In this document: positions 1 through 16,075 of the stretch, one piece after another
How the letters are laid out: the number at the start of each line of letters is the position of its first letter
How positions within the stretch are numbered: the first letter of the stretch is position 1
From: Proteiniphilum acetatigenes DSM 18083
GTDB lineage: Bacteria; Bacteroidota; Bacteroidia; Bacteroidales; Dysgonomonadaceae
DNA: 64,000 bases
NCBI RefSeq assembly: GCF_000380985.1
Contig: NZ_KB905700.1
Span: forward strand, 1 to 64,000
Direction: 5' to 3'
Program-made: the position numbers and the translations under genes
Notes under the pieces: generated by a model
The model's input: the letters and a program-made list of their open reading frames with translations, nothing else
What the model was told of the DNA's origin: nothing
The model's database searches: none

Positions 1-800
1 CCGTTGAATCCTCCGTCTATGGTGATGGTTGTCCCGGTCACAAAGGATGAGGCATCGCTCACTAAATAGTGGATTGCCCCGCACAGTTCCTCGGGTTTTC
101 CCATCCGTTTGAAGGGCGTCTGGCGTATGACATCCTCTCCCCGTTGGGTGTAACTACCATCGGGGTTTGTGAGCAAATCCCGGTTCTGTTCGGTGATAAA
201 GAAACCCGGTGCTATGGCATTTACCCGTATCCCCTCGCCAAATTTGGCAGCCACCTCATTGGCCAGGAACTGCGTGAAGTTGGTGACCCCCGCTTTTGCC
301 GCGGCATATCCGGCTACGCGTGTCATCGGACGGAAGGCGGCCATCGACGAGAAATTAATGATATTCCCCTTTTTTTGTTCCACCATGGGTTTGAGAAAAA
401 CCCTGGAAGGCAGCACGGTGCCGGTTAGGTTCAACCGGACCACCTTGTCGAATTCATCCAGATCCAGATCGAAAAAGGTTTGTGCGGGACTGATGTTGGC
501 TCCCGGCATATTCCCACCGGCTGCATTGAGCAATGCGTCGATACGCCCGTACCGTCCCAATATCTCTTCCCTGTTCCGTACCAGCACAGCTTCGTCCAGC
601 ACATCAGTTCTCAGGAACAGCGCTTCCTTGCCTTCCGATTTGATTTTGTCTACACTCCCCCTGCCTGCCTCTTCCCGGCGCCCCAGGATAACTATTCTGG
701 CGCCCTGGCCTGCCAGGTAGGATGCAATTACACTTCCCAACACGCCCGTACCGCCGGTAATGACGATCACCCTTTCCCGTATACTGAACAAATCTTCCAT
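1..800 (-). CDS. SDR family oxidoreductase, probable D-mannonate oxidoreductase (3' end cut by window)
   Basis: Partial gene; the last few codons lie outside the window. The start ATG is at 798-800 and the protein opens MEDLFSIRERVIVITGG. It is a classical short-chain dehydrogenase: the NAD(P)-binding TGGTGVLG motif is at residues 15-22, followed by an NAAG-type loop (LLNAAGGN), the catalytic Ser in NFSSMAA, the YAAAK pair (Tyr, Lys), and the C-terminal TGTTITIDGGF signature. It follows the mannonate dehydratase gene by 24 nt on the same strand. SDR enzymes in this position reduce fructuronate to mannonate, replacing UxuB, so together the two enzymes would link glucuronate to 2-keto-3-deoxygluconate. 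The family is certain; the substrate is inferred from the neighbour. Confidence 0.88.
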   Translation of the reverse strand, partial: MEDLFSIRERVIVITGGTGVLGSVIASYLAGQGARIVILGRREEAGRGSVDKIKSEGKEALFLRTDVLDEAVLVRNREEILGRYGRIDALLNAAGGNMPGANISPAQTFFDLDLDEFDKVVRLNLTGTVLPSRVFLKPMVEQKKGNIINFSSMAAFRPMTRVAGYAAAKAGVTNFTQFLANEVAAKFGEGIRVNAIAPGFFITEQNRDLLTNPDGSYTQRGEDVIRQTPFKRMGKPEELCGAIHYLVSDASSFVTGTTITIDGGFN

Positions 801-824
801 AACTAAACTATTTTATCAACTTTA

Positions 825-2006
825 TCAACATTTTCCTGATTCTATTTCATCTTGCACTACGGCCATTATTCCCTCCACCTGTGCCAGCGCGAACATCCTC
901 CCGTAGAAGGAGTATCCGGGATTATGGTTCTTTTCGACATCATCGAGCATCAACCTGCCGTGGTCGACCCGCATGGGGATATGAGGCCTCTGTTTTTCCA
1001 GAATACGGATCACTTCAATCAATGCTCCCTTTCCTTCCAGATGGGAAGCCTCTATGAAGTCGCCGCCGGGAAGCAATCCGGTACTCCTCAGGTGGGCAAA
1101 ACCTGTCCTGCCGGCAAATCTGCAGGCCAGGGCGGGCACGTCGTTATGGATGCCGGCACTCAAGGATCCGGTACAGAAAGCCAGCCCGTTCGCGGGACTG
1201 TCCACTGCATCCAGTATCCATTCGATATCTTCCTCCCCGGTTACGATCCGGGGTAATCCAAATACCGGAAAGGGTGGGTCGTCGGGATGGATGCAAAGGG
1301 TGATCCCATATTCTTCGGCTACGGGAATAACCCGTTCAAGGAAGTATTTTAAATTCACCCGGAGTTGGATCTTACTTACCCCCTTATAAAGTTGCAGGAG
1401 TTTTTTAAAAGCCTGTACAGGATCAGTCTTCCCATCAGATATACTCCGGTGGATAAACCCCTGGGTCTTTACGATAATGGTGTCGATCAGCACTGCTTTT
1501 TCATCTTCGGTCATCCTGTTGTAAAGCAATCTTACCTTTTCCAGTTCTTCGGTTGTATAATCTTTTTCCGCTCCCTCCCTTTGCAGTATCATACAGTCGA
1601 AACAGGCAAACCGGATCTTGTCGAAGTAGAGGGTATATGTGCCGTCCGGCAGTTTTCTATGCAGGTCGGTACGGACCCAGTCGATAGCGGGCATAAAATT
1701 GTAACAGATAGTTTTTATTCCCGCCTTCCCTAAATTGGACAGACTTGCTTTGTAGTTTTCGATCAGCCGGTCGCGTTCGGGTGCCCCGTATTTGATCTCC
1801 TCGGCAAGGGGAAGGCTTTCCACTACCGACCAATGCAGTCCAGCCTGCTCAATATGGTCTTTCAGACTGTAAATGGCTTCACTTGCCCACACCTCGCCGG
1901 GAGGCACATCATACAGGGCCGTAACAATGCCTTCCACCCCGATCTGACGGAGCATATCGAGCGTAATTATATCTTTTGCACCAAACCAGCGCCAGGTCTT
2001 TTCCAT
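825..2006 (-). CDS. uxuA: Mannonate dehydratase UxuA
   Basis: A 393-residue cytoplasmic TIM-barrel enzyme that dehydrates D-mannonate to 2-keto-3-deoxy-D-gluconate in hexuronate catabolism (EC 4.2.1.8). The N-terminal MEKTWRWFGAKD followed by an ALYDVPPGEVW stretch is the hallmark of the UxuA family, and the length matches the usual 390-400 residues. Metal-binding His, Cys and Asp residues are visible in ICYNFMPAIDW, LCIHPDDPPFPVFG and FAHLRSTG. It is followed after 24 nt by an SDR gene that probably supplies its substrate. It lies downstream of the SusCD genes but is separated from them by a terminator-like hairpin and has its own possible promoter at about 2038-2069. Confidence 0.96.
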   Translation of the reverse strand: MEKTWRWFGAKDIITLDMLRQIGVEGIVTALYDVPPGEVWASEAIYSLKDHIEQAGLHWSVVESLPLAEEIKYGAPERDRLIENYKASLSNLGKAGIKTICYNFMPAIDWVRTDLHRKLPDGTYTLYFDKIRFACFDCMILQREGAEKDYTTEELEKVRLLYNRMTEDEKAVLIDTIIVKTQGFIHRSISDGKTDPVQAFKKLLQLYKGVSKIQLRVNLKYFLERVIPVAEEYGITLCIHPDDPPFPVFGLPRIVTGEEDIEWILDAVDSPANGLAFCTGSLSAGIHNDVPALACRFAGRTGFAHLRSTGLLPGGDFIEASHLEGKGALIEVIRILEKQRPHIPMRVDHGRLMLDDVEKNHNPGYSFYGRMFALAQVEGIMAVVQDEIESGKC

Positions 2007-2037
2007 AATTTGTTTTTTCTTTTGTTCATTTAATTAG

Positions 2038-2069
2038 GCAAATATCGGTTCATTTGTTCTAATAAGCAA
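2038..2069 (-). promoter_or_regulatory. Possible promoter of uxuA
   Basis: On the minus strand a TTG (2067-2069) is followed 21 bp later by ATATTTGC (2038-2045), close to the Bacteroidota -33 TTG / -7 TAnnTTTG pattern. It lies 32 bp upstream of the uxuA start and after a terminator-like hairpin, so the uronate genes could be transcribed separately from susCD. The match is imperfect at the -7 box. Confidence 0.35.
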
Positions 2070-2084
2070 GATAAAATAATAACA

Positions 2085-2119
2085 CCAGCCCTACGTAACC
2101 ACAGAGCACGTGGGGCTGG
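2085..2119 (-). terminator. Hairpin terminator after susD
   Basis: A 12-nt inverted repeat with one mismatch (arms 2085-2096 and 2108-2119, CCAGCCC..ACGT type) lies 47 bp past the SusD stop. On the minus strand it is followed by a T-rich stretch (TGTTATTATTTTATC). This fits a rho-independent terminator or attenuator between susD and uxuA. Confidence 0.6.
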
Positions 2120-2165
2120 GTTAAAACATGATTCTATAAATATTTGAAATGCTACATTTAAAATT

Positions 2166-4061
2166 TTATTGAGGTCCTAACACTGTACCTTCCTTGGGTA
2201 CAATTAACGGTTCTACATTATTTTCAGCACCCGGGTAACCAATATTCTGATTAATGATCCCTCTTATATTTGTATTTATAGCATTTGCAGGAACGGGCCA
2301 TAAAACATGATGTACGCTCATTTTATATTCAGCCCATTTATGTATTACACCTTTGTTGTAGAAATTGGATTGTTTCATTATCCAATCATAATAAAAATTA
2401 ATTCCTTCCTGTTTTATATTTGCCCCTGTTCCTCCCGGACCAGAGAAATTATCCAGTCTATATACTCTGCCACCAAATACTTCGCAAGGTTTTCCGGTCT
2501 TCGCATAGGTGTATGCTACTCTTGTCAATTCGGATTTTCTGTTTTCTTCGTAATACAACTCCCTTGCTCTTTCGTCCAAAATAGCACCAATATTTATATC
2601 TGCAGCTGTTAAAGGATCGGCTCCTGCTCTTGTTCTTACTACGTTTAAAGCCTCAGCTGCCTGTGCGGGTTGATCTTTCCAGTAATAACATTCAGCAATC
2701 ATCAGATAGACTTCTGCAGAGCGATAAATGTACCATGGTGTTTCTCCCCCCTGCCATTGAGTTTGAAGCGGATCCGGGACAAAGAGTTTATAATGCGGCC
2801 AGGAAAACCAGCAACGGATTGTGTCTTCTACCGACATAGCAACCGGTTTGACTAAATTCTGACCGTACCACGGATTATTGTCTCTTTTAAGGTCGGGATG
2901 ATTATATTGTAAATCTTCGGGGCTTTTCCAACTGTCGCGATTATAAATTCCACGCAAATCGTTCTTTTCCTTGTCTGTCCATACTTTATTGGTATAATAA
3001 CTGGTGGGGCGCAAGCGTCCGATTCCTCTTCCGTAACTTTTATTCAAGTCCATCCAAGGATCTGTTTCGGTTGCATGGATACTTACACTGGTTCCGGTTT
3101 TTCCATCGGGCGTTCTTACGTTTCCACTATTCCAGAAAGGTACGCCATTACGCATGGTCTGAATCCTGTCGGAACCGTCGATTTCGGGATATGCCACTAC
3201 ATACATCAATCCTTCCGTATTGCTCCTGTCGAGTTTGGCTTCCACACTGTGAAGATCGTGCATCAGATTTGTCCCTGGTTTTGTCTGGTTTGCAGTAAAC
3301 CGTTGGGTCATTAACGGGTGTTTGGCAATAATTTCATTACCCACTTCAATAGCCCGGTCAAACTCTCCCAACGCCATGCAAACTTTCATCAACAGGACTC
3401 CGCAAGCTGCTTTAGATGTCCTCCCCCGGTCTACCTTTTCAGGAACCCATTGATATGCAAATTCAAGTTCGGGAAGCATTTTCTCCAAAATGGACCAGCG
3501 GTCATACGAATAGAAATCATATTTGGGTTCTACTATTTCCCAATCCAGATAAGGAACGTTGCCAAACTGATGAGTAAGTTTATAATAGCGGTACGCTCTG
3601 TGGAAATAGGCTGATCCCAATACTGCATTCCTTTCAGCTTCGTCTTTGTATTCAGCCTGATCGATCTTGGCAATAACGATATTGGCATATTTAACACCCT
3701 TATAGCCTTCATACCAGTACCAACCTACTCTTGTACGATCCACACTATTCAAGTTGGCATCCGGCAAAAGTGAAACATCCAGATCCATTTGGGGACCGGC
3801 TTTGTCGGTTGTTCCTTCTACAGCCATATCCGACAAAATAAATTCTGTAAGAATAGGTGATCCGTCTCCGAAATACTCGTGTCTCATATTGCGTTCACAT
3901 GTGGTTAACGCAGCATAAAACCCTTCTGCATCCACATAGGTATTTTCAGGCGTATAAAAAGATAGGGGTTTTGGCTCCAGCCAGCTGTCTGAACAACTCC
4001 ATGTTAAGATGAATACCAACAGGAGTGTTATTTTATTGTATTTTGATAATAACGTCTTCAT
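2166..4061 (-). CDS. SusD/RagB family nutrient-uptake outer membrane lipoprotein
   Basis: A surface lipoprotein of 631 residues that acts as the glycan-binding lid over its SusC partner. It has a lipoprotein signal peptide with the lipobox ending at Cys23 (LTWSC), then the LEPKPLSFYTPENTY segment typical of SusD N termini. The TPR-like region with AYFHRAYRYYKL is seen around residues 150-160, and the SusD C-terminal region includes RSAEVYLMIAECYYWKDQPAQA and ILDERARELYYEENRK. The gene starts 12 nt after the SusC stop, the usual order and spacing. The ligand cannot be read from sequence; the neighbouring uxuA suggests a uronic-acid-containing glycan or glycoside. Confidence 0.96.
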   Translation of the reverse strand: MKTLLSKYNKITLLLVFILTWSCSDSWLEPKPLSFYTPENTYVDAEGFYAALTTCERNMRHEYFGDGSPILTEFILSDMAVEGTTDKAGPQMDLDVSLLPDANLNSVDRTRVGWYWYEGYKGVKYANIVIAKIDQAEYKDEAERNAVLGSAYFHRAYRYYKLTHQFGNVPYLDWEIVEPKYDFYSYDRWSILEKMLPELEFAYQWVPEKVDRGRTSKAACGVLLMKVCMALGEFDRAIEVGNEIIAKHPLMTQRFTANQTKPGTNLMHDLHSVEAKLDRSNTEGLMYVVAYPEIDGSDRIQTMRNGVPFWNSGNVRTPDGKTGTSVSIHATETDPWMDLNKSYGRGIGRLRPTSYYTNKVWTDKEKNDLRGIYNRDSWKSPEDLQYNHPDLKRDNNPWYGQNLVKPVAMSVEDTIRCWFSWPHYKLFVPDPLQTQWQGGETPWYIYRSAEVYLMIAECYYWKDQPAQAAEALNVVRTRAGADPLTAADINIGAILDERARELYYEENRKSELTRVAYTYAKTGKPCEVFGGRVYRLDNFSGPGGTGANIKQEGINFYYDWIMKQSNFYNKGVIHKWAEYKMSVHHVLWPVPANAINTNIRGIINQNIGYPGAENNVEPLIVPKEGTVLGPQ

Positions 4062-4073
4062 ATTATTAAACTA

Positions 4074-7000
4074 TTAGAGGGTGAAGTTTAAACTAATATT
4101 ATAAGTGCGTGGAGTAGGTTCCATGCTATTGGGATTATCTGTATCCGGATTACGCCTTTCAGGATCCCAAAAGTTCCAGTGCGGAGAAAATACGGCTACA
4201 TTTCTCACGGAAAGCGATACGCGCATATCCTGAACAAATATTTTCTGAGTCAGAGTCTTGGGTACATTGTATGATAATGTGATATTTTCCCAACGAATAA
4301 ACGATTTTTGTTTGTAGTTATTTCCGGTATTTTTTGATCCGATCCGGGCATAGTCGTTTATCCTGTTCTCAGCTGTCCAATAGGGTTGTACATATTCCGA
4401 AGTTCTGTCGGGGAAATTAGAAACATTTGCCGCACGGTTAAATGTATCATACCACCCCCAATGGGAATAAAACATGGTTGAAAGAGAAAGATCTTTATAA
4501 AAGATAAATTCATTGCGGAATGTCCAGTTAAAGCGGGGAGTTTTATATCCCTGGAATATTTTATCGTCATCCGTCATTACTCCGTCTCCGTTCTGATCTT
4601 TGTATTTAAAATCACCCGGTTGTAAACCGTATATCTTAGCCTCTTCGGCTTCTTCTTTTTGCCAGACGCCAATGCGTTCATAATCCCATATACGGTCCGG
4701 ATCCTGACCGATAAACCATTTGTTCTTAATGTCGTCGGCTTCTCTTTGTCCGATTACGTTACCGTTCTCATCCTTTATATCGATCATGTCTCCGTAGAGA
4801 CTTACAATTTTTCTCCTGTTGAGCGAGAAATTGGCAGAAGCATTCCATTCAAACTTAGGACGTGAGATCATAGTTGCATTTACGGTTGCTTCGAATCCCC
4901 TGTTTTCCAATTTACCCAGGTTGGCCGCAACACTGTTATACCCGATAATTTCGGGGAGCGCCCGATCCACTAACAAATCGTTGGTAGTGGCGATATACCC
5001 TTCCAATGCGCCACTGATCCTGTTATGGAGAAATGAGAAGTCCAAACCTACATTCATAGAAGCGGTACGCTCCCATTTTAAATTCGGATTCGACATTCTG
5101 TCCACATATATCTGAGAGGTTATATATACATTTCCGTTTTGATCGATATAGGGATGTGGACCGGATACCATATTCGATAATGCCTCATATTGTCCGATAT
5201 CCCTGTTCCCGTTTTCCCCCCAGGATAAACGTAATTTCCCATAATCAAACCAACTGGTTATGGATTCTGCAAACTTTTCTTCAGTAAATGTCCATCCTAA
5301 AGCCACAGCCGGAAAAACTGCCCGGGGATTCCTCTGTCCGAAGGCGGAGTAGCCGTCTCTCCGGACGGATGTGGTAATCATATATCTGTCTTTTAAGGAG
5401 TAGAATAATCGTCCCATCAGTGCATCTCCTGTACGGTAGGTGTCATCGCTTTCATTCAAAGGAACTGTACCTGCCTGGATTCTGTGATATCCGAGTATGT
5501 CGTTGGGCGAGAACTGTGTTGACGTCATTTTTTGGCTCCAATACTGTCTTTGTTCAGCATTTACCAGTAAGGTGGCCTCAATATTGTGAATTTGGTTGAA
5601 CCTTTTTTTCCATCTCAATATATTGTCGACCTGCCAAGAATAGATTTTATGAGTTAAGCGTTCGGATTTTCCTCCGTTCGCTGCCCATGAGAAGTTTTTG
5701 GAAGATTCGTGATTGTAGTACTCTCTCCACTCGTAGTAGGGTATAAAATTAAATTGATATTCAATATCGAACGGAAGGCTCAGGATAGCATATAAATTTG
5801 CATTCAGAGTACTGTAGACATTCTTTCGGTCTCTGTATAAATTATCAAAGAAAGGGTTAACCGGAGTTACATCCGAAGTTGGGTATTTCCAGAGATATTC
5901 ATCCACTTCCGGATTGCCGATCTCATCAGCACCATAGGGAGATATTCTGACCATTTGTCCCCAATCAGCCCGTAAAAAACCTTCATTACGCGTACTAAAA
6001 CCTGAGTTAAGGCCGATCCTGAGAAAAGAGGTAATATTTGATTCCAGATTTAAACGTGTCCTTGCAGTGGTAAACCGGTCACCTACGATAATACCTTCTC
6101 TGTCGGAATATCCCAATGACCAGTAGTAAGAAACATCGTCGGTCTTGTTGGAGATGGCAACCTGATAATCCTGCTGTAATCCTGTCTGGAATACTTTCTT
6201 CGCCCAATCGGTTGTTCTGCCAAGAATAAAATTATCAATTTCAGGGGCTTTAAGTTCTAAGCGGGATGCCCAGGTTCTTAAAAGATCTTCTTCCGTGAAA
6301 TTTTCTATGGGTGTTTCTTTGTCATAGTTGAACCAATCCCGTTGATTTACATTTTGAAGTTTACGGGGATCTTCAAAAATTTCAGGATATTTTTGTAAAT
6401 ATTCATCACTGTTTTTACCAATTTCATATGCCCTCCGGTATTGGATAAAACCCTCGGCATCCAATAATTTGGGCTGATTGGCCGACTGCACCATACCAAC
6501 CGATGTATTGAAAGATACCATTGGTTTTCCGCCACGTCCGCCTTTTTGTGTCATGATAACAACTACCCCACTAGCGGCTTTGGCGCCGTAAACAGCAGCA
6601 GAGCTGGCATCCTTTAAAATATCTATTGAGGCCACATCCATCGGATTGATATCTGCCAGAGAACCTTCGTAAATCACTCCATCCAAGACGATCAGAGGAC
6701 TGGATCCTGCTTTTAAGGTGTTTTTTCCACGTAATTGTAGAGTAGCATCGCCCTTTGCTGTAGTGGCAAGACCAATGTTTACCCCGGATGAATTGGCTCG
6801 TAACAGATCCTGCACAGAGCGGGGGCTTTCTGCTTTGAGTGCTTCTGTTCTGATTGTAGATATGGCACCTGTCAGGTCTTTTTGTCTCATGGTTCCGTAC
6901 CCAACGACCACTACTTCATCCAGGAAGCTTGTTTCTTCTTCTAAAGTAATATTTATAACGGTTCTGTTTCCCACATTTACTGTTTGCGTCTCAAATCCGA

Positions 7001-7343
7001 TATAGGATATATTCAATATTGGATCTGATGTGGTGAGTTTTAATGTGTAATTCCCGTCTATATCGGTGATGGTTCCATTGCTTGTACCTGCTTCTACCAC
7101 ATTTACACCGATCAGGGGTTCACCTTTCGTGTCATTAATATGACCGCTTATGGTTCTTGTAACTTGCTGTTGTTCAATTGGTTGATTTGCGGGGGGGGGG
7201 GGGGGGTATTCACCTAAAGCTAAGGAGCTTACAGGGAAAGAGAAAAGTAAGGCCATAATAAAACCGGCGAGTGTCAGTTTCATGGTCCCATCTCCCACCT
7301 TCATTTTTCTTGGATTGAGAAAAAATTCATTCTTTTCTTTCAT
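4074..7343 (-). CDS. SusC/RagA family TonB-linked outer membrane transporter with a C16 tract
   Basis: A 22-strand barrel transporter of 1089 residues that imports oligosaccharides using TonB energy. A signal peptide covers about residues 20-43 and is followed by five prolines (47-51) encoded by a run of 16 C. A carboxypeptidase-regulatory-like domain follows (about 62-140, ISGHINDTKGEPLIGVNV), then the DEVVVVGYGT TonB-box region and the plug domain (LRGKNTLKAGSSPLIVLDGVIY; SIDILKDASSAAVYGAKAASGVVVI). The C terminus is barrel. It is paired with the SusD gene 12 nt downstream. The homopolymer makes the gene a candidate for phase variation: a change of one base either way gives a stop within about 20 codons. 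In the sequence given the frame is open. Confidence 0.97.
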   Translation of the reverse strand: MKEKNEFFLNPRKMKVGDGTMKLTLAGFIMALLFSFPVSSLALGEYPPPPPANQPIEQQQVTRTISGHINDTKGEPLIGVNVVEAGTSNGTITDIDGNYTLKLTTSDPILNISYIGFETQTVNVGNRTVINITLEEETSFLDEVVVVGYGTMRQKDLTGAISTIRTEALKAESPRSVQDLLRANSSGVNIGLATTAKGDATLQLRGKNTLKAGSSPLIVLDGVIYEGSLADINPMDVASIDILKDASSAAVYGAKAASGVVVIMTQKGGRGGKPMVSFNTSVGMVQSANQPKLLDAEGFIQYRRAYEIGKNSDEYLQKYPEIFEDPRKLQNVNQRDWFNYDKETPIENFTEEDLLRTWASRLELKAPEIDNFILGRTTDWAKKVFQTGLQQDYQVAISNKTDDVSYYWSLGYSDREGIIVGDRFTTARTRLNLESNITSFLRIGLNSGFSTRNEGFLRADWGQMVRISPYGADEIGNPEVDEYLWKYPTSDVTPVNPFFDNLYRDRKNVYSTLNANLYAILSLPFDIEYQFNFIPYYEWREYYNHESSKNFSWAANGGKSERLTHKIYSWQVDNILRWKKRFNQIHNIEATLLVNAEQRQYWSQKMTSTQFSPNDILGYHRIQAGTVPLNESDDTYRTGDALMGRLFYSLKDRYMITTSVRRDGYSAFGQRNPRAVFPAVALGWTFTEEKFAESITSWFDYGKLRLSWGENGNRDIGQYEALSNMVSGPHPYIDQNGNVYITSQIYVDRMSNPNLKWERTASMNVGLDFSFLHNRISGALEGYIATTNDLLVDRALPEIIGYNSVAANLGKLENRGFEATVNATMISRPKFEWNASANFSLNRRKIVSLYGDMIDIKDENGNVIGQREADDIKNKWFIGQDPDRIWDYERIGVWQKEEAEEAKIYGLQPGDFKYKDQNGDGVMTDDDKIFQGYKTPRFNWTFRNEFIFYKDLSLSTMFYSHWGWYDTFNRAANVSNFPDRTSEYVQPYWTAENRINDYARIGSKNTGNNYKQKSFIRWENITLSYNVPKTLTQKIFVQDMRVSLSVRNVAVFSPHWNFWDPERRNPDTDNPNSMEPTPRTYNISLNFTL
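7191..7206. repeat. Homopolymer of 16 G (C16 on the coding strand) inside the SusC gene
   Basis: Sixteen consecutive G on the plus strand, read as C16 in the gene, encode the end of a Tyr codon and five Pro codons just after the signal peptide. Tracts of this length are prone to slipped-strand mispairing. With C15 the frame reaches a TAA after about 15 further codons; with C17 it reaches a TGA after five further codons. Confidence 0.97.
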
Positions 7344-7377
7344 AATGATCTAATTAAAAAAATAAATAATAAATGGT

Positions 7378-8817
7378 TTAATTATTTTGAGAGTCGGAGG
7401 GATCAATATCTTTTGCCATTTCTAACGCGGTTGTCGTTATGTAATATTTTGCGATGGTGTTTGAAATTTCCCACTCCGGCATATCCCGGTTAACAAGATA
7501 CCCGAAATATTTTTCGGCTACCATTCCAAAATAGTCTTCATGTCCTTTTCTGAATTCCACAGGAGCAATGATTTGATACCTTCCTTCCTCGATTTTCTCT
7601 GCCGATACATAGGGATACGATGCTTGCAGATCTGTCACTGCTTTCACTATATTAGAATCAAAAGTTTGTTCATCAAAAGATTTCTCTTTTTGAATAAATA
7701 ATTCTTTGATATAGTTCACCGATTGATCCTGAACAATTTCAATAGACGCATTCGTTCCCCTGATAAGGCCATTGTAAGTATCACCACCTCCTTTGGGTGC
7801 TTCATAATTCCACAGAACGGTTACCGATACATTTTTTCCTTTTACCTGATAATTGATTTTCCCGTTGCCATAAACCTCCAATACTGAATTATTAATATAT
7901 TTCTGCAGGAAATCAGGGAAAGCGTTCAATTTTGTGGACTTAGAAAAATCCTGTAACGTCAATCTGGTGGGCCAATGACTTGCGGCTGTCATTTGTACAT
8001 CGTTGGTATAATCGATTATCTGGTCAGGAAAGCACTGCCAGTTGATCAGATCTATTAAATGTACCGACACATCTGCAATTCCTTCTCCCTGTTGTTCCAC
8101 ATCATAAAACCATACCGGACGAACCAGTGTATTTCCGGATACTTCCTTATAATAATGATGCACACTTTCCATGACTATTCCGGGATTATCCGGTGTTCCG
8201 GCTTGTAATTCTCCAAACAGTTCTTTCCTGTTCACAAGTTTACGGGTAAGTGTATTGATGATCTCGTTCCTTTCCGTCATAACATCCAACAAATAAGAGC
8301 CATGAGTATGAGCAGAATCAAAGGCTGCTTTCAACAAATTAAAATTCTCTTTGCTGATCGCCATCGGCTTGTCTGAAAGGATATTGAATCCGGCATTGAG
8401 CGACTGGAAAATATACTCAGTTTTTTTCCTGTTATTTCCAGCCAGAATCACTACATTTCCATTTTTCTCTTCAATCATCTTCCCGAGATAATCTTCCCCG
8501 GCATATAACACTATCTGCCAATTAGTCGGGTTTTCCGGGCGCTGGTTATAACTTTCAATACTTTCCAGATACTGATCAAGTTCGTTCCCCTCAGGCGCAT
8601 ATACGTGTACGGTGTCGTTGACCTGACGCTGTGGAAATTTCTGGAGCAGACTGGCATGAAAATGACCTGGATCCAATACCACTAATCTGATCTCTCCGTC
8701 CTGACCGGTAAACTGAGTCGACGCCTGTTCTTTTTCCGTGTCCTTCCGCATATTGCATGAAAAGAGTAAAAGGGCTCCAAGAATAATCACCGATTGATAA
8801 AGAATATTTCTCATCAT
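7378..8817 (-). CDS. Gfo/Idh/MocA-type oxidoreductase, lipoprotein
   Basis: A 479-residue lipoprotein (lipobox ending at Cys21, LLLFSC) with an oxidoreductase fold. The N-terminal Rossmann half has VVLDPGHFHASLLQ in place of a canonical GxGxxG loop, a VVILAGNN segment, and SDKPMAI at the position of the EKP motif of the family, keeping the Lys. The catalytic-type HLIDLINW segment follows. The C-terminal half resembles the putative oxidoreductase C-terminal domain found in Bacteroidota. Being a lipoprotein it should act in the periplasm or at the surface. It sits between another Gfo/Idh/MocA gene and susC, 34 nt before susC, so it is probably in the same transcript. The altered nucleotide-binding loop means redox activity is not assured. 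Confidence 0.85.
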   Translation of the reverse strand: MMRNILYQSVIILGALLLFSCNMRKDTEKEQASTQFTGQDGEIRLVVLDPGHFHASLLQKFPQRQVNDTVHVYAPEGNELDQYLESIESYNQRPENPTNWQIVLYAGEDYLGKMIEEKNGNVVILAGNNRKKTEYIFQSLNAGFNILSDKPMAISKENFNLLKAAFDSAHTHGSYLLDVMTERNEIINTLTRKLVNRKELFGELQAGTPDNPGIVMESVHHYYKEVSGNTLVRPVWFYDVEQQGEGIADVSVHLIDLINWQCFPDQIIDYTNDVQMTAASHWPTRLTLQDFSKSTKLNAFPDFLQKYINNSVLEVYGNGKINYQVKGKNVSVTVLWNYEAPKGGGDTYNGLIRGTNASIEIVQDQSVNYIKELFIQKEKSFDEQTFDSNIVKAVTDLQASYPYVSAEKIEEGRYQIIAPVEFRKGHEDYFGMVAEKYFGYLVNRDMPEWEISNTIAKYYITTTALEMAKDIDPSDSQNN

Positions 8818-8847
8818 TACAATTCTTTAAAGTTTCACTTAAGTTAG

Positions 8848-8912
8848 ACTATCTCTCGCTATGGCATAGCTCAAGCAAGCTTGGCTCTGCTCATTTAGCT
8901 TATCGAGATAGT
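8848..8912 (-). repeat. Structured stem-loop repeat, copy 1
   Basis: An 8-bp stem (8848-8855 with 8905-8912) encloses exactly 49 nt. Inside, GCT (8858-8860) pairs with AGC (8897-8899) around a 36-nt core (8861-8896) that is identical to 20127-20162. The right arm lies inside the last codons of the upstream Gfo/Idh/MocA gene (stop at 8900-8902), so the element forms the start of that gene's 3' untranslated region. The copy at 20114-20178 has different arm sequences that also pair. Confidence 0.85.
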
Positions 8913-10282
8913 TGAATATAATCTGTACCGTATGGGGCTCTCTGCGGCCTTTTTAACATAGAGTTTGCCAATTCACTGTTTTTGAATTTTTCGAGTTTCG
9001 GATCCCATTCCAGCCTACCCGGAATCTTCATTGCGATGTGGCTGATCAGGCAGACAGTACAGGCACGATGTCCGATTTCCACGGGTGATATAGGCTCTTT
9101 TCTCGATTCGATACAGTCAAGCCAGTTCCCGTGTTGATTGTCACTCTTATACAAATGAATCTCGTTTTCACCGATCTCTGAGGTCAAAATTTGGGGATCA
9201 CTGGCATCCAATGCTTTTGAATTATTTCCCTGTGTCACCGGATCACTTGATGATGCGACATAATTACCACGGGAAACGAAAATCCATCCATCGGTGCCTT
9301 CATATCTGATGCCGTTGGGATAACCTCCACTTGTGTACATGGTTATTCCGTTTTCATACTCCGCTTTTACCATAAAATCGCCGTGTACATCCCACAGCCC
9401 CGATTTGGGGAATTGTGCAATAGCCTCCACAGAAACAGGACCTGTGTATTCAGTGTCCATACCCCATGCAGCCGAATCAAAATGATGTTGTCCCCACCCG
9501 GTAATCATACCGGAACCAAATTGCTCACATCGCAACCATCCGGGACGTCCGTAATTGTTTTGGGGATGAACCCTGATTTCGGTATAATATACTTCAGGGG
9601 TTGATCCGAGCCACATGTCGTAATTCAAGTTCGTTGGAACAGGCATTTCATTTGCGTCCGGACCGGAAGGATCGCCGGGTAATCCTATTTTCACGGTATG
9701 AAGCTTGCCGATCCTTCCGTTTCTTACCAGTTCTGCCGCTATCCTGAATTGGGGGGACGAACGTTGCTGTGTTCCTACCTGAAGGATTACATTCTGACGG
9801 CGTACTACATCGCTTAGGAGCCGTCCTTCCTCTACTGTTAACGATGTGGGTTTTTGCAGATATATGTCCTTTTTAGCCAAAGCTGCGCGGATAGCAGGTT
9901 CTGCATGCCAATGATCCGGCGTACTGATAATTACGGCATCAATATCTTTGTCAGCCAGCATATCGATGTAATTTTCGTACATCTTTACGTTTGAATAGGA
10001 CTTTTTACCTGCTTTCTTAGCATAATATTCATCCACATACTTTTTTCCATCGGTCAGGCGTTTACTGTCTACATCGCAGACAGCTACAAATTGTGCTTTA
10101 TCATATTTTATGGTCTCTGCCATATCATGATCCCGGGCAATTCTGCCACAACCAATCTGTCCGATATGAATTTTATTGCTTGGTGCATTTTTGCCGAACA
10201 CCGATGAAGGGACAATGGTTGGAAAAACCGCTGTTCCCACTGCTGTTGCAGCAGCCTTTTTTATAAACATTCTTCTTTTCAT
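8900..10282 (-). CDS. Gfo/Idh/MocA family oxidoreductase with Tat-type signal
   Basis: A 460-residue NAD(P)-dependent sugar oxidoreductase homologue. The N terminus KRRMFIKKAAATAVG matches a twin-arginine signal, implying export in folded form with its cofactor. The Rossmann motif GQIGCGRIA follows at about residues 41-49. The family EKP motif appears as QKP (YLQKPTSLT), with the catalytic Lys kept, and a GWGQHHFDSAAWGM segment supplies the active-site His/Asp. Periplasmic members of this family oxidise or epimerise sugars and glycosides, for example at C3. It lies 82 nt upstream of a second, lipoprotein member of the family. The final codons form one arm of a structured repeat. Confidence 0.93.
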   Translation of the reverse strand: MKRRMFIKKAAATAVGTAVFPTIVPSSVFGKNAPSNKIHIGQIGCGRIARDHDMAETIKYDKAQFVAVCDVDSKRLTDGKKYVDEYYAKKAGKKSYSNVKMYENYIDMLADKDIDAVIISTPDHWHAEPAIRAALAKKDIYLQKPTSLTVEEGRLLSDVVRRQNVILQVGTQQRSSPQFRIAAELVRNGRIGKLHTVKIGLPGDPSGPDANEMPVPTNLNYDMWLGSTPEVYYTEIRVHPQNNYGRPGWLRCEQFGSGMITGWGQHHFDSAAWGMDTEYTGPVSVEAIAQFPKSGLWDVHGDFMVKAEYENGITMYTSGGYPNGIRYEGTDGWIFVSRGNYVASSSDPVTQGNNSKALDASDPQILTSEIGENEIHLYKSDNQHGNWLDCIESRKEPISPVEIGHRACTVCLISHIAMKIPGRLEWDPKLEKFKNSELANSMLKRPQRAPYGTDYIQLSR

Positions 10283-10299
10283 ATGATTAAATTTATATA

Positions 10300-10473
10300 A
10301 TTACCAGTTATCAGTTACTAATTACCAATTGTGATGTCAGAACCAAGAGTCAAGAACCAAGACTATAAAATTCAAGATTTAAGATTCAAGATTTTTAAAC
10401 TTCTTGATTTTGCGGACTTCTCCACTTCTAACTTCTCAATTAGTCTTATTGGCACATTAGTACATTAGTCTCA
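10300..10473. repeat. Low-complexity intergenic repeat stretch
   Basis: The 191-bp gap before the Gfo/Idh/MocA gene is filled with short recurring words: variants of TTACCAGTTATCAGTTACTA, AACCAAGAGTCAAGAACCAAG, TTCAAGATTTAAGATTCAAG and CTTCTCCACTTCTAACTTCTC. The same words recur at 24903-24980 and 63961-63984. No gene or clear promoter is visible in it. Confidence 0.7.
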
Positions 10474-11373
10474 TTAGTTCGTTTCCGATTTATACTTCTC
10501 AAATTCCCCTGCTATCCCGGCTTCAATATGATCACCGTTATGTACAAGTACCCTATATCTGAGTGTAATGATTTCTCCTTTTTTTAGTACCGTATTTTTA
10601 TCATTCTCCGGCCAATACATAGGGGTGGGAGAGAAGAACCCGTAATCGCGTGTAAACCAGGGAGCGGGATACCACTCATTGGAAGGATGCTGCATAATAG
10701 CCATTCCTTCCATTTTTCCCTGCCTTTTACCATGATAATCCATCCATGGTGAACGTTTGCCGAAAGTCGCTTTTTCTCCTTTTTCCCCTTCGGCATTGAT
10801 CATTGTTCCTCCGTTAGTCACTGCCAAATCGGGATCTATACGTCCACTGAACAAGGAATGGTTGGTTTTTTCTATTGTCACATCCATAAGCATTTCCATA
10901 GTGACATCGAAATCTATCTGGATTTTTTCCTTTGATGGGGCGGAAATAGTGATGATCCGTTTGTCCTTTATGGGAGCATCTGCACCGGGGCGTCGCCAGA
11001 TACATTCGTTTTCGATCACTGCTTTCTCATTCCCTGTCTCAATAATATCGGCTCTTAATGAAATGATTTGCCCCCTTTCTAAGCCTTCCTGCCAGTAATT
11101 GCCTCCATTTACTCTGTCACATCCGAAGAAAAGTGAACTATGGTGGGGGTAATCGGCATTGCGCATTGAAGTTACAGATGCGTTCGAAGGGCCATTTACA
11201 GGGTAGAAAAAGGGATATTTCTCATATTCCGAAATGATATAATTCGTAAACAGTTTTCCGTTTACTTTTATCTCGATTTTATCTCCTGCTTTTTCTGCCG
11301 TTACTTTTGATTGAGAAAAAGTAACATGGTGAATAAGCCCGCTAAAAAGAATAAATAATAGGATCTTTCTCAT
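10474..11373 (-). CDS. DUF6807 (PmoA-like) family secreted protein
   Basis: A 299-residue protein with an N-terminal signal peptide (MRKILLFILFSGLIHHVTFSQ). The body matches the DUF6807 / PmoA-like family: a YPFFYPVNGPSNASVTSMRNADYPHHSSLFFGCDRVNGGNYW block, then a central FGKRSPWMDYHGK segment, and the C-terminal ITLRYRVLVHNGD strand. These proteins are predicted beta-sandwiches, common in Bacteroidota and Planctomycetota sugar loci; their biochemical role is not established. The conserved HH dyad (DYPHHSSLFF) suggests an active or metal site. It is 11 nt downstream of a longer paralogue, and both precede the Gfo/Idh/MocA genes, which suggests joint action on an oxidised sugar. Confidence 0.85.
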   Translation of the reverse strand: MRKILLFILFSGLIHHVTFSQSKVTAEKAGDKIEIKVNGKLFTNYIISEYEKYPFFYPVNGPSNASVTSMRNADYPHHSSLFFGCDRVNGGNYWQEGLERGQIISLRADIIETGNEKAVIENECIWRRPGADAPIKDKRIITISAPSKEKIQIDFDVTMEMLMDVTIEKTNHSLFSGRIDPDLAVTNGGTMINAEGEKGEKATFGKRSPWMDYHGKRQGKMEGMAIMQHPSNEWYPAPWFTRDYGFFSPTPMYWPENDKNTVLKKGEIITLRYRVLVHNGDHIEAGIAGEFEKYKSETN

Positions 11374-11384
11374 GTTTTTATAGT

Positions 11385-12662
11385 TTATTTTTTTGAAATG
11401 ATTTTAATTTCAGCTTTTCCGGAAAAGCTGTTCCAATACATTTCGGCTGTTTCTTTGTTGATTTTTCCATCAAAGACGATCATCCTGTATTTAAGAACAT
11501 AGTTATTTCCTTTTTTAAGTTCCCATGACTTATGGCGGATAGGAGTAAACTCGAAGTACATATCGCCTCTACCTCCATTTGCATCTATCGGCCAGACACG
11601 CATAGGTTCAGGGTGTGCACGGTTTGAAGAATGGCTCAGGAATAAAATACCCGAGCGGCCTTCCTCTACTTCCGACTCTCCCTCTACAATACACCAACGG
11701 GCATTGCTTCCATCGGCATCTATTCTTGTTTTTCCTTCAGAAGTAAGCACTGTAGAGTTATCCTTTGTCCATTTCTCAGTTGCTCTGAAGCCAATACCTC
11801 CACCATATCGGTATGCGTCGAGCATGATACCGTCCGGTAATGGAGTATTTAGTATAGTGGTATAGTCAATGACCCTTACTTTGTCATTTATATTCCAGAC
11901 CCTCACATCCAAAGTTTCATTGATTGCTATCTGATCTTCACCCTTCGCGCCAAAATCAATATGTTGCTGCAGCACACGGAACCCGGAGAATATATCTCCG
12001 ACTGTTTCAGACAGGAAGCCTGCAAATTGAACGGTTCCCTCACCTTCATACAAATTCCAGAAATCGACTTTCCGGTCATTTATATGTGTCAATGTCCACG
12101 GTCCCCAGATGCCATAGTGATGATAATGATCCGGAGCCTGCACACGCGTTAATATTTCTCCGCCGGGAGACCATAAGGGATGGATAAATCCTGAACGCTT
12201 AAATAAAGGATTGACCCCTTCAGGAGGATACATTATGGCAAAGCGATAACTTAATACACCCTGCTCCTTTTGACGAAGAGTAAGGTTTTCCCCCGACTTG
12301 TATATGTGTATATCAGTATTTAATGTGTCGATAGGATTTTGTTCTTGAATTTTAAGAGAAAATTTTCTTGTGGAATTTTTTGCAGATAATCCTTCCAATA
12401 TAAACCAAAGGTGAGAGGAGTAATCTGATTCTACTTGGCAGTGTACTGATTTCTCTCCGGTTGAGATAATTTCATATAGTGCCAGGTTCTCTTGGTCTGT
12501 ATTTACATGACCTAATAATTCATCCAGCGGAATCGATACCGGCATATCAAGACAGGACTCTTTAGTAGTGACCGTGAAGTTTATCGTTTGACTGGTAACA
12601 CATAGAGAAAATATCCACATAAATGTGAGAAGAATTTCTTTTAATAGATTTGGAGCTTTCAT
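11385..12662 (-). CDS. DUF6807 (PmoA-like) family protein, long form
   Basis: A 425-residue secreted protein, apparently first gene of the minus-strand locus. After a signal peptide (about residues 1-24) there is a beta-rich N-terminal region of roughly 100 residues that its neighbour lacks, then a DUF6807-like domain: FKRSGFIHPLWSPGGEILTR, the HYHHYGIWGPWT block (matching the PHHSSLFFG block of the paralogue), DAYRYGGGIGFRATEKW, and the terminal LKYRMIVFDGK strand. The family function is unknown. The tandem of a long and a short form suggests two steps or a heteromer. Operator-like palindromes lie 160-200 bp upstream, facing the LacI gene. Confidence 0.85.
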   Translation of the reverse strand: MKAPNLLKEILLTFMWIFSLCVTSQTINFTVTTKESCLDMPVSIPLDELLGHVNTDQENLALYEIISTGEKSVHCQVESDYSSHLWFILEGLSAKNSTRKFSLKIQEQNPIDTLNTDIHIYKSGENLTLRQKEQGVLSYRFAIMYPPEGVNPLFKRSGFIHPLWSPGGEILTRVQAPDHYHHYGIWGPWTLTHINDRKVDFWNLYEGEGTVQFAGFLSETVGDIFSGFRVLQQHIDFGAKGEDQIAINETLDVRVWNINDKVRVIDYTTILNTPLPDGIMLDAYRYGGGIGFRATEKWTKDNSTVLTSEGKTRIDADGSNARWCIVEGESEVEEGRSGILFLSHSSNRAHPEPMRVWPIDANGGRGDMYFEFTPIRHKSWELKKGNNYVLKYRMIVFDGKINKETAEMYWNSFSGKAEIKIISKK

Positions 12663-12821
12663 TTCACTGATTTATTTAGATTTATGCAATATTGACGTAA
12701 GTTGTTACTTCTTATTTAAGAAATAGATCTTAATTGTTTATTATATATGTCTATTGTTTTATTAGAATCTATAACATTTTCATTATTAGTATATTAATTC
12801 ATTTCTAGCGAATTTTTAGTA

Positions 12822-12861
12822 TGTGCTCGTACACGGGATCTGTTGTTGTGTACGTACACAA
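12822..12861. promoter_or_regulatory. Paired operator-like palindromes
   Basis: A perfect 16-bp palindrome, TTGTGTACGTACACAA (12846-12861), follows an imperfect relative, TGTGCTCGTACACG (12822-12835); their centres are 25 bp apart. They lie in the divergent region controlled by an adjacent LacI-type regulator, a common place for its operator. ATACGTAT (12861-12868) abuts the second site. Confidence 0.55.
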
Positions 12862-13156
12862 TACGTATCGAAATCTTACTGAAACCCTCTTTTTATCAAA
12901 TTAAGAATGTAAATGATATCTTACTGCCTGGTTTACAATCTCTTTAGCCTTTTTGCAGGTGCATTAAAAACGTATTCTCCCATCACAGAATACAAAGATA
13001 TGTTATATTTTTCCAAACAAAATAATGAAAAACCTTAAAACATCATTGAAAATATATATAATGAAAATAAATTTTGTTTATATGCTTGTTTTAATTGATA
13101 TTTTTTTATAGTTTTCTTTGTGAGGAGTAAATATCTAAATCGTTTTACTAATAATA

Positions 13157-13188
13157 TTGCCGGATTTGAAAATATATCTTTACTTTGC
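13157..13188 (+). promoter_or_regulatory. Probable promoter of the LacI-type regulator
   Basis: TTG (13157-13159) is followed 21 bp later by TACTTTGC (13181-13188), near the Bacteroidota -33/-7 consensus. It ends 60 bp before the ATG at 13249. Confidence 0.5.
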
Positions 13189-13248
13189 ACATTTATTTAT
13201 CTGTTTACAATTCGTCATTATTCCAAACAGGTGTAAAATTAGCCCAAT

Positions 13249-14316
13249 ATGCAACGAAAGATTCGCATAAAAGATATTGCGGAAATGGCCGGAGTTTCGG
13301 CAGGTACGGTAGACCGGATACTCCATAATAGAGGAAATGTTTCAGAATCAGCGCGTATAGCTGTTGAGGAGGTGTTGAAAAAAGTACACTACAAGCCGAA
13401 TATCCATATTTCCGGATTGTCATTAAAAAGAAAATACAAGGTAGCGATTACTACCCCCAATGTAATGGAAGGAGAATATTGGGAGAGTATTCATTCAGGT
13501 ATCAGCCATGCATTGGAAGAGTTTGAGAATATCCGGATACAATGTTTGGTATACACCTATAATCAATATGATATTTATTCTTGTAGGGAGGTATATGATC
13601 AGATAGCACAACTCGATGCTGATGCCATCATTATCGGTACTACTTTTAAGGAAGAAACCGTTCGCCTGTCGAGACGATTGGATGAAAGGGAGATACCCTA
13701 TGTTTTTGTTGACTCTACCCTGGAAAATACAGCACCGTTGGCCTTTTTTACTTCCGATCATTATATCTGTGGCTATCTGGTGGCTAAACTGATCACTTCC
13801 ATTATTCCTTCGGGAAGTGATATTGGGATGTTACAGGCAGTGAGGATAGGGGATGAGAGTGCCAATACGAGTATATTGAGAAAGCAGGGTTTTAATGACT
13901 ATCTTACTGAAAAGAGCATCACCAATAGTGTGCAGAAAATACCTTTTACTGCCATGGAACCGGAAAGATTTGATGAACAGCTGGCTCACTTCTTTCAGAC
14001 ACATCATAATATTGGAGGAATAGTAGTACTCAATTCGAGAGGAGGGATCGTTGCCGATTATTTTGCCAGAAACGAGATTAATGATATCAGGTTGGTTTGT
14101 CTGGATCTCACGGCACCCAATGTAAGAGGGTTGAAAAACGGGTATATTGATTTTCTGATCGGCCAGGAGCCGGAACATCAGGGATTTCTGGCGATGAAGA
14201 CATTGATCGAGTACCTGATATACCGCAAACCGGTAAAAGTGGAGAACTATACACAGCTCGATATCCTGACCAGGGAGACTATCGGTTATTACAACCAGTT
14301 CAACTTTATGTCATGA
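13249..14316 (+). CDS. LacI family transcriptional regulator
   Basis: A 355-residue DNA-binding regulator. The N-terminal helix-turn-helix is IKDIAEMAGVSAGTVDRIL at residues 6-24, followed by the hinge (ARIAVEEVLKKVHYKPN) and a periplasmic-binding-protein-like ligand domain from about residue 62 (YKVAITTPNVMEGEYWESIHSGI). The recognition helix carries TVDRILHNRG where LacI has TVSRVL, a form frequent in Bacteroidota. It is divergent from the uronate/SusCD locus and is its likely regulator, acting through the palindromes at 12822-12861. Its last codons overlap the next gene by 4 nt (ATGA), so the two are translationally coupled. Confidence 0.93.
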   Translation: MQRKIRIKDIAEMAGVSAGTVDRILHNRGNVSESARIAVEEVLKKVHYKPNIHISGLSLKRKYKVAITTPNVMEGEYWESIHSGISHALEEFENIRIQCLVYTYNQYDIYSCREVYDQIAQLDADAIIIGTTFKEETVRLSRRLDEREIPYVFVDSTLENTAPLAFFTSDHYICGYLVAKLITSIIPSGSDIGMLQAVRIGDESANTSILRKQGFNDYLTEKSITNSVQKIPFTAMEPERFDEQLAHFFQTHHNIGGIVVLNSRGGIVADYFARNEINDIRLVCLDLTAPNVRGLKNGYIDFLIGQEPEHQGFLAMKTLIEYLIYRKPVKVENYTQLDILTRETIGYYNQFNFMS

Positions 14317-15041
14317 ACATCATCCTGTCTCACTCTACTTTACCTTCGTTTAACTTAGCTGCAGAAGAACATTTTTTCTCAAAAACGGGAGAAGATTTCT
14401 TGCTGTTGTATGTCAATGAACCGAGCGTTATCATCGGATCTAATCAGGCGGTATTGAATGAGGTAGACCAGGATTTTTGTATAGAACACAATATCCGGAT
14501 TATACGGCGGTTGTCGGGCGGAGGAGCGGTATATCATGATACCGGAAACCTGAACTACAGCTTTATCCATGGGAAAACCGGAGAGCCGTTGAGTGCCCGT
14601 TTTCTCGATCCGGTGGTGGAGGCGCTTCGGGCATTGGATATCCCTGTTGAAATAAGAAAACGGAAAGATCTTTGGCTGGAGGGATACAAAATATCGGGTA
14701 CCGCATCACATCTTTCCAAGGGGCGGGAGATACATCATGGTACATTGCTTTATGATACCGATCTGCAGATGCTTTCGAAGGCATTAAATCCTGAGCAGAG
14801 GGATTTAGTAAGGAAGGCAACCGCTTCGATACCCAGTCCTGTGAAAAATATCCGGTCATATTTAAAAAAAATAAAGGGGATCAATCCCGAACCGGAACAG
14901 TTCTTCCGGCAGTTTGCCCGGCAGATAGGCTTGATATTGGGAACAAACCATATCGGTACTTTTGGTAACCATGATAAAGAGGAGATAGAGAAGTTGCAAA
15001 GAGACAAATACGTACAAAGAAGCTGGAACTATAGAATGTAA
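14313..15041 (+). CDS. Lipoate-protein ligase A family protein
   Basis: A 242-residue cofactor ligase of the biotin/lipoate A/B family that attaches lipoate (or octanoate) to E2 and GcvH domains. The signature RRLSGGGAVYHDTGNLNYSF is at about residues 67-86, and the lysine-bearing GYKISGTASHLSKGR segment that contacts lipoyl-AMP follows at about 127-141. It is shorter than E. coli LplA (337 residues), lacking most of the accessory C-terminal domain. It overlaps the stop of the LacI gene by 4 nt, an odd partnership, and ends 53 nt from a convergent gene. Confidence 0.92.
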   Translation: MNIILSHSTLPSFNLAAEEHFFSKTGEDFLLLYVNEPSVIIGSNQAVLNEVDQDFCIEHNIRIIRRLSGGGAVYHDTGNLNYSFIHGKTGEPLSARFLDPVVEALRALDIPVEIRKRKDLWLEGYKISGTASHLSKGREIHHGTLLYDTDLQMLSKALNPEQRDLVRKATASIPSPVKNIRSYLKKIKGINPEPEQFFRQFARQIGLILGTNHIGTFGNHDKEEIEKLQRDKYVQRSWNYRM

Positions 15042-15094
15042 CAGCTGCCTCGTTGAGGTGATACCAGGGCTTTACGTAAAAGAATCAGATATCC

Positions 15095-16075
15095 TTATGA
15101 TTGTCTGTACAATCGCCCTTGCCAGGTTTCTCTTTCCCGGAAACGTTTCACTATTTTTTCTCTCACCACATAATTCTTCTGATCCCAGGCGGGAGCAATC
15201 AATAATTTTCTAGGAGATTGGGAGGTAAATCGTTCGATGTAAATCTCCGGCTTTAGCCGTTCCGCAAAATCGACACACAGATCGATATATTCATCCAGCC
15301 CGAAGAGGTGGAACGATTCGGGTAATAGCCGGAATTCTTTTGCCATAGCAGTTCCTCTGATAATCTGTAGCTGATGCAGTTTCAATGTTGTCAGGGGGAG
15401 TCGCGAAAGTGTACCTGCATGAGAAAGTATCTCTTCTATGCTTTCCCCCGGCAATCCCAGGATCATATGTGCACCTGTCACAATGTTTCGTCCGGCGGTT
15501 TCCCGGATCATCTCCGCCGATTCTTCGTAACTATGCTGCCGGTTCACCCTCTCCAATGTTTTATTCAGTGTCGATTCTACCCCGTATTCCACCATGACAA
15601 ATGTTTTTTTGCTGAGCTCTTCAAAATAGTCAAGTAGTTCGTTGGGCATGCAGTCCGGGCGGGTACCCACGATCAGTCCCACTACGTTGGGGTAGGAGAG
15701 CGCCTCTTCATATTTAGAGATAAGCGAGTCGAGACTGTCATAGGTATTGGTATAGGACTGGAAATAGGCCAGGTATTTCATCTCAGGATACTTATGAGAG
15801 AAGAAGGTGATACCGTCACTCAACTGTTTCGAAATAGTTCTGGTCGGTTTGCCATAACCTGGGCTAAAACTCTGGTTGTTGCAATAGGTACATCCGCCAC
15901 GCCCTTTATTGCCGTCACGGTTGGGACAGGTGAAGCCGGCATTGACGGAAATTTTTTGTACTTTATAGGGAAATTTTGCTGAAAGGAATTCGGCAAAATC
16001 GCGATATGGTTTGTCGTTTGAAAACACGCGTGTTATATTTATTTTATGAATCAATGGCAGAAGCCGCCAACACAA
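15095..16075 (-). CDS. Radical SAM protein, TIGR01212 / YhcC family
   Basis: A 326-residue radical SAM protein related to E. coli YhcC. The iron-sulfur cysteines are in NAGFTCPNRDG and GGCTYCNNQSF (about residues 49-68), spaced as in this family instead of the classical CxxxCxxC. Also visible are VGLIVGTRPDC, the VEYGVES strand, and GAHMILGLPGES. The function of the family is not settled. The chosen ATG gives a slightly long N terminus (MCWRLLPLIHKINITRVF); the conserved part begins near INITRVF and no later ATG fits. The gene is convergent with the lipoate ligase gene and stands alone. Confidence 0.9.
   Translation of the reverse strand: MCWRLLPLIHKINITRVFSNDKPYRDFAEFLSAKFPYKVQKISVNAGFTCPNRDGNKGRGGCTYCNNQSFSPGYGKPTRTISKQLSDGITFFSHKYPEMKYLAYFQSYTNTYDSLDSLISKYEEALSYPNVVGLIVGTRPDCMPNELLDYFEELSKKTFVMVEYGVESTLNKTLERVNRQHSYEESAEMIRETAGRNIVTGAHMILGLPGESIEEILSHAGTLSRLPLTTLKLHQLQIIRGTAMAKEFRLLPESFHLFGLDEYIDLCVDFAERLKPEIYIERFTSQSPRKLLIAPAWDQKNYVVREKIVKRFRERETWQGRLYRQS

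Follow-up and report, generated by a model that had tools for sequence, protein, structure and literature searches.

Does the run of 16 cytosines in the coding strand of a SusC-family gene of Proteiniphilum acetatigenes serve to switch the transporter on and off, or is it a repeat of no consequence, or even an error of the assembly? An earlier note on the stretch of DNA analysed here (64 kb, below called the window) had proposed this homopolymer as a candidate phase-variation switch, and the proposal has gained support from the ortholog of a sister species, in which a tract occupies the same site in the OFF frame of an otherwise open gene under purifying selection. We consider it probable that replication slippage at the C16 tract toggles SusC translation, which would make the tract a translational contingency locus of the slipped-strand type, and the best reading of the data is that this SusC contingency locus is one of several in the host genome. 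The tract and its neighbors in the window are the following.

7191 to 7206, minus strand: C16 homopolymer, made up of five CCC proline codons (residues 47-51) and, before them, the third base of a Tyr codon; the proposed slippage switch
4074 to 7343, minus strand: SusC/RagA-family TonB-linked outer-membrane transporter of 1089 aa, its gene standing in the full-length (ON) frame (TIGR04056, 738.6 bits, 1.5e-221)
7214 to 7283, minus strand: signal peptide directly before the tract, probable from visual inspection of the translation (residues from M21 on)
2166 to 4061, minus strand: SusD-family partner (PF07980, 1.3e-34), 12 nt downstream of SusC
825 to 2006, minus strand: UxuA-type mannonate dehydratase (PF03786, 3.8e-118), downstream of SusD
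7378 to 12662, minus strand: two GFO/IDH/MocA-type oxidoreductases and two DUF6807 proteins, upstream of SusC, their order kept in the sister species
13249 to 14316, plus strand: divergent LacI-family regulator (PF00356, 3.5e-13)

The gene was assigned to the SusC/RagA class on the basis of its TIGR04056 score, which exceeds the curated cut-off (738.6 vs. 368.25 bits), its carboxypeptidase-regulatory-like domain (CarbopepD_reg_2, PF13715, residues 65-146), its plug domain (Plug, PF07715, residues 154-260), and the SusD partner. The substrate is perhaps a sugar of the uronate type, and the product of the LacI-family gene is a possible regulator of the operon.

In the assembly the tract appears as G16 on the plus strand, with flanks c and tat, and on the coding strand it starts 137 nt into the open reading frame, with the last base of TAC followed by the 5 CCC codons. 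It lies between the probable signal peptide and the CarbopepD_reg_2 domain, in agreement with the earlier description of 16 C just after the signal-peptide codons. The neighboring frames had previously been checked by hand, with the conclusion that a change of one base in either direction truncates the protein early, and an in silico frame test gave the same result: C15 led to a stop after 64 aa and C17 to a stop after 56 aa. Tracts of C10, C13, C16, C19, and C22 all gave a full-length product of 1087-1091 aa, that is, single-unit length changes alternate between full-length and truncated SusC. The expectation that changes of three bases would be tolerated, the prolines being in a linker, is supported in that C16±3 remained full length and the tract precedes the first recognised domain. 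Among ATG, GTG, and TTG codons within 200 nt upstream, the only start in another frame from which the tract is reached without a stop is a GTG two codons before it; no other-frame ATG over this distance does so. All five tract prolines are encoded by CCC, compared with 77 of the 207 other proline codons in 10 genes (chance 0.007).

An invertible promoter for SusC was also considered and was rejected, as no strong inverted repeats were detected within 4 kb. Within positions 1-16000 of the window, 13 inverted pairs of at least 14 nt and at most 4000 nt apart were found, and the pair of which one arm directly precedes SusC (4712-4730 / 7362-7380) is 19 nt long, 84% complementary, and A/T-rich; inverted repeats surrounding a promoter or gene segment, as in invertase-type systems, were not seen in this region among pairs up to that distance.

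The C16 tract is far beyond what chance would give. When about 131 kb of the host genome (4.78 Mb in 37 contigs) was used to train Markov models of order 1-3, these predicted 0.0004-0.008 G/C runs of at least 15 bases for the whole genome, and 5 were observed; for runs of at least 16 bases, 0.00007-0.002 were expected and again 5 observed, with lengths of 16, 16, 18, 18, and 19. When the threshold is lowered to 10 bases, the 11 runs of the host against 1.1-7.3 expected are, taken alone, only mildly beyond expectation. A/T runs of at least 10 bases number 6 in the host genome, although the window is A+T-richer. Within the 64-kb window, G16 at 7191-7206 is the sole C/G run of 7 or more bases, and the longest A/T run is one A9, the only one of at least 9. 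Of 198 sampled genomes from the order (completeness of at least 90), among which the host was the sole member of its genus, 15 had G/C runs of at least 15 bases, with 5 such runs in the host and 1 or 2 in each of the other 14. A scan of the genus found runs of at least 10 bases in 21 of 39 genomes; it yielded 65 runs, and at most 51 regions were inspected, comprising all 11 of the host and 40 others, while the remainder were mostly near contig ends.

Relatives of the locus were found with the SusC protein in Proteiniphilum, Petrimonas, Fermentimonas, and Seramator, and further off in Parabacteroides and Tannerella. The genome of the sister species, taken to be Proteiniphilum saccharofermentans M3/6T, is a single contig of 4,414,963 bases; that of M3/6T is described as MiSeq-sequenced with its gaps closed (PMC5684752). 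Gene order at the locus is conserved in this species, with 82% identity over 944 nt, and at the site of the tract its SusC ortholog carries C12, preceded by an altered flank. The sister gene is one base out of frame, with a stop after 56 aa, and in tblastn the SusC protein is split between two frames at the tract. Past the tract it is open, with a stop-to-stop frame of 1036 aa that runs up to the same C-terminus; the alignment of this part with the window SusC contains 905 identical residues among 1038 and one 10-residue gap, and over 1028 codons dN is 0.071, dS 1.36, and dN/dS 0.052. Because the remainder is open to the same C-terminus and dN/dS is 0.052, the view of the sister copy as a decayed or old pseudogene was rejected. 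A constrained gene standing one base out of frame is what a phase-variable OFF state would look like, a miscalled base being possible. Tract length and ON/OFF state differ between the species, the window gene being ON with C16 and the sister gene OFF with C12 and an altered flank, in a comparison of two species with one genome each in which a single base decides the OFF call. The possibility that the locus has diverged unusually far from its counterpart in the sister species was considered as well and was rejected, since another window segment is 86-89% identical and the 82-91% of the operon is thus ordinary.

The tract is missing from six more distant orthologs, which are 77-81% identical at the protein level, and in none of the 19 relative loci found with the SusC protein is there a C/G run of at least 7 bases in the SusC gene, one of them (L085) having runs upstream only. 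The idea of the tract as a common SusC feature was rejected on this ground; the tract is a local gain, given these tractless orthologs and loci, and the switch would not be general to this transporter, since the six distant orthologs do without it.

In the host genome as a whole, 3 of the 11 G/C runs of at least 10 bases, the window tract included, are in SusC genes (one of them a remnant), 1 is in an NVEALA gene, and 1 is placed between two other genes (L043). Another 3 lie upstream of a SusC start, by 224, 407, and 829 nt, and 3 precede same-strand gene rows that contain SusC and have as their first gene one for a TIG/NHL protein or for a nucleoside symporter; these rows are presumably operons. 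A SusC gene or an apparent SusC operon thus contains or follows 9 of the 11 tracts. The in-gene tracts outside the window are as follows.

G000:C2:460818-460830 (L042:4319-4331): second SusC gene (TIGR04056, 861.1 bits) with a C13 tract, out of frame
G000:C19:57601-57618 (L048:4102-4119): NVEALA-family gene (PF14055, 6.6e-9) with an in-frame G18 run in the part that probably encodes the signal peptide
Contig C15, L046:1182-1717: broken, paralogous SusC remnant with a C19 tract; dead, with a stop before the tract and an internal deletion

In the second SusC gene, the C13 run lies inside a 994-aa stop-to-stop frame with 981 open codons past the tract, and the OFF call again depends on one base. 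Its post-tract part and that of the sister copy have a dN/dS of 0.054. The sister copy has a shorter interrupted run (ACCCCCCCGG) and is in frame, with 1054 aa; its CarbopepD_reg_2 domain is at residues 31-114, and the tract of the second SusC is therefore inside that domain. The region of the second SusC is 95-97% identical to the sister genome, more conserved than the window operon. As for the remnant, the first 739 bases of contig C15 are the reverse complement of window positions 739-1, so the C19 tract is probably located just beyond the start of the window, next to the window operon.

The number of SusC genes in the host was only bounded, with 163 candidates, of which 56 were scored and 56 exceeded the cut-off, so association with SusC was calculated for 57, 100, and 163 assumed genes. 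For the 6 of 11 tracts in SusC or within 830 nt upstream of it, the post hoc p-values are 4.6e-6, 1.1e-4, and 0.0017, respectively. For the 3 of 11 tracts inside a SusC gene, they are 0.0073, 0.033, and 0.11 (also post hoc), and with 163 genes assumed this excess is not significant.

Five intergenic tracts of the host (L039, L040, L044, L045, and L047) adjoin a GTTAAC-like double motif, which in two cases is matched only loosely, and intergenic poly-C/G tracts with such a double motif also occur in relatives (L101, L105, L106, L108, L109, and L110); many of these motif-joined tracts are upstream of SusC genes. The strict pattern TTAAYNNNNRTTAACGGGGG had 13 matches in 5 of the 39 genus genomes, 3 of the matches being in the host, and its reversed form had 0 matches in the same 39 genomes. 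Orthologous-looking tract pairs differ in length between species, 16 vs. 11 (L047/L108), 13 vs. 10 (L044/L110), and 12 vs. 11 (L045/L105), and the flanks of these three pairs are 78-93% identical. Two further tracts, L120 (11 bases) and L147 (5 bases), lie before the same symporter-type gene as L045, with a flank identity of only about 52%. The motif-joined intergenic tracts may be promoter-type switches, which we offer as a lead and not as a result. A broader reading, somewhat less likely than not, is that the genome of this digester-type Bacteroidales holds a poly-G/C contingency set aimed at SusC and made up of two classes, one in genes (SusC and the NVEALA peptide) acting on translation, and one acting on transcription, whose tracts precede SusC operons and adjoin a TTAAY-N4-RTTAAC-type motif, so that the cells of one clone would display different glycan importers.

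Three other explanations of the window tract have to be weighed against slippage switching. The tract could be a neutral microsatellite that expanded by drift in a tolerant linker, mutating and leaving some lineages frameshifted with no selected reversible switch; its position outside recognised domains, the death of the paralogous C19 copy next door, the six distant orthologs without a tract, and G10-11 runs in housekeeping-type genes of other genus members, chance-like by eye among the matches listed, are all compatible with this. Drift is nevertheless unlikely to be the explanation, as a tract occurs in each of two separate species (locus identity 82%, with 86-89% in another window segment, and dS 1.36 in this gene), yet the out-of-frame copy retains a dN/dS of 0.052, and several tracts are located within surface-transporter genes or ahead of them.

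Assemblies can misjudge the length of a homopolymer, and if the true tracts were shorter or their lengths miscalled by sequencing or consensus building, the ON and OFF states would be meaningless. Outside the host genome, 14 of the 19 order-level runs of at least 15 bases are within 130 nt of a contig end (manual count), the sequence around ten of the 19 having been viewed, and a G90 run stands at a contig end in a genus member (G010, L107:4431-4520), so such G runs can be artefacts. The window tract, however, is separated from a contig end by 7 kb and keeps the frame of a long open reading frame, a tract occupies the same site in the independently sequenced MiSeq genome of the sister species, and the three intergenic tract pairs have the conserved flanks described above. 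An artefact is thus very improbable, and a length error of one or two bases in the tract is possible. Least probable of all is that RNA polymerase or ribosomes slip at the tract, in which case protein would be made from every tract length at a reduced level and the tract would be a tuner rather than a switch. Bacterial transcriptional slippage on A and T runs is known (PMC1088944), and an out-of-frame gene under purifying selection would also fit it, but a change in DNA length alone explains the length differences between species.

If the C16 tract is a replication-slippage switch of translation, the following steps can be proposed. The poly-C/poly-G run would slip at replication, with gain or loss of a single C. 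A length change by a multiple of three would keep the frame and alter only the number of prolines in the linker after the signal peptide, and at any other length translation would end about 5-14 codons past the tract, before any recognised domain, and therefore no transporter would be made. Reverse slippage would restore SusC, and with slippage in both directions the population would thus contain cells with and without this transporter on the surface. The benefit might lie in hedging bets on the substrate, or in evading phages or other SusC-using agents. Length switching within one strain is part of what we infer here, as are the slippage rate, its reversibility, the substrate, and the benefit.

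Comparable switches are known in other bacteria. In Neisseria meningitidis, poly-G tracts within the open reading frames of hmbR and hpuA are reported to switch TonB-dependent haemoglobin uptake systems (PMC3786947). According to the same source, the ON lengths are spaced by three, and substitutions in the flank make the "effective tract length" the proper measure (PMC3786947). The window gene resembles hmbR as a TonB-dependent receptor with a poly-G tract in the open reading frame (in HpuAB the tract is in the lipoprotein gene hpuA), and the changed flank of the sister-species SusC recalls the flank substitutions described in Neisseria; unlike hmbR/hpuA, it encodes a SusC-family receptor of the Bacteroidales and not the haem receptor of a human pathogen, and phase variation has been described there whereas it is inferred here. 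Within the same order, SusC/SusD phase variation by DNA inversion with a site-specific invertase was reported in Bacteroides fragilis (Nakayama-Imaohji 2009, as cited in PMC11868660 and PMC12632263), as the earlier note had stated for Bacteroides. Both cases concern on/off variation of SusC-family surface proteins, but here it would be a homopolymer within the coding sequence that varies. In the available text of a 2025 review of phase variation, inversion is named wherever a mechanism is given for Bacteroides (PMC11868660), and the words homopolymer and slipped are absent from that of a 2025 review on gut Bacteroidales (PMC12632263).

Homopolymer slippage has been put forward for Bacteroides before, since slippage at an extra C in a 4-C run was suggested for the polysaccharide acetyltransferase gene of a B. 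fragilis capsule (PMC3090145); in contrast to the window tract, that case is a four-base run in a biosynthesis gene, and it was offered as a suggestion only. Campylobacter and Helicobacter are described as having genomes with many homopolymeric tracts, both intergenic and intragenic in Campylobacter (PMC8355987, PMC2823697). They belong to another phylum, whereas in the present genome the majority of the 11 tracts are linked to SusC and several share the GTTAAC-type motif. Among the literature matches listed, in a search mostly without subscription journals, none described a SusC gene switched by a homopolymer. Surveys based on inverted repeats are blind to homopolymer switches. If the proposed switch is real, glycan uptake would be bet-hedged in environmental Bacteroidales as well, by the simplest mechanism, and annotations that call such SusC genes frameshifted pseudogenes would mislead.

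Two other genus members have a poly-C run followed by a flank similar to that of the window tract (CTGAAAATCAA..., L134:3928-3942 and L135:3865-3874), with no SusC frame seen around these runs by eye. In the genus member G010, poly-G runs are located near the ends of contigs C5, C9, C11, C13, C16, and C17 (positions 66-126), and the assembly probably breaks at these tracts.
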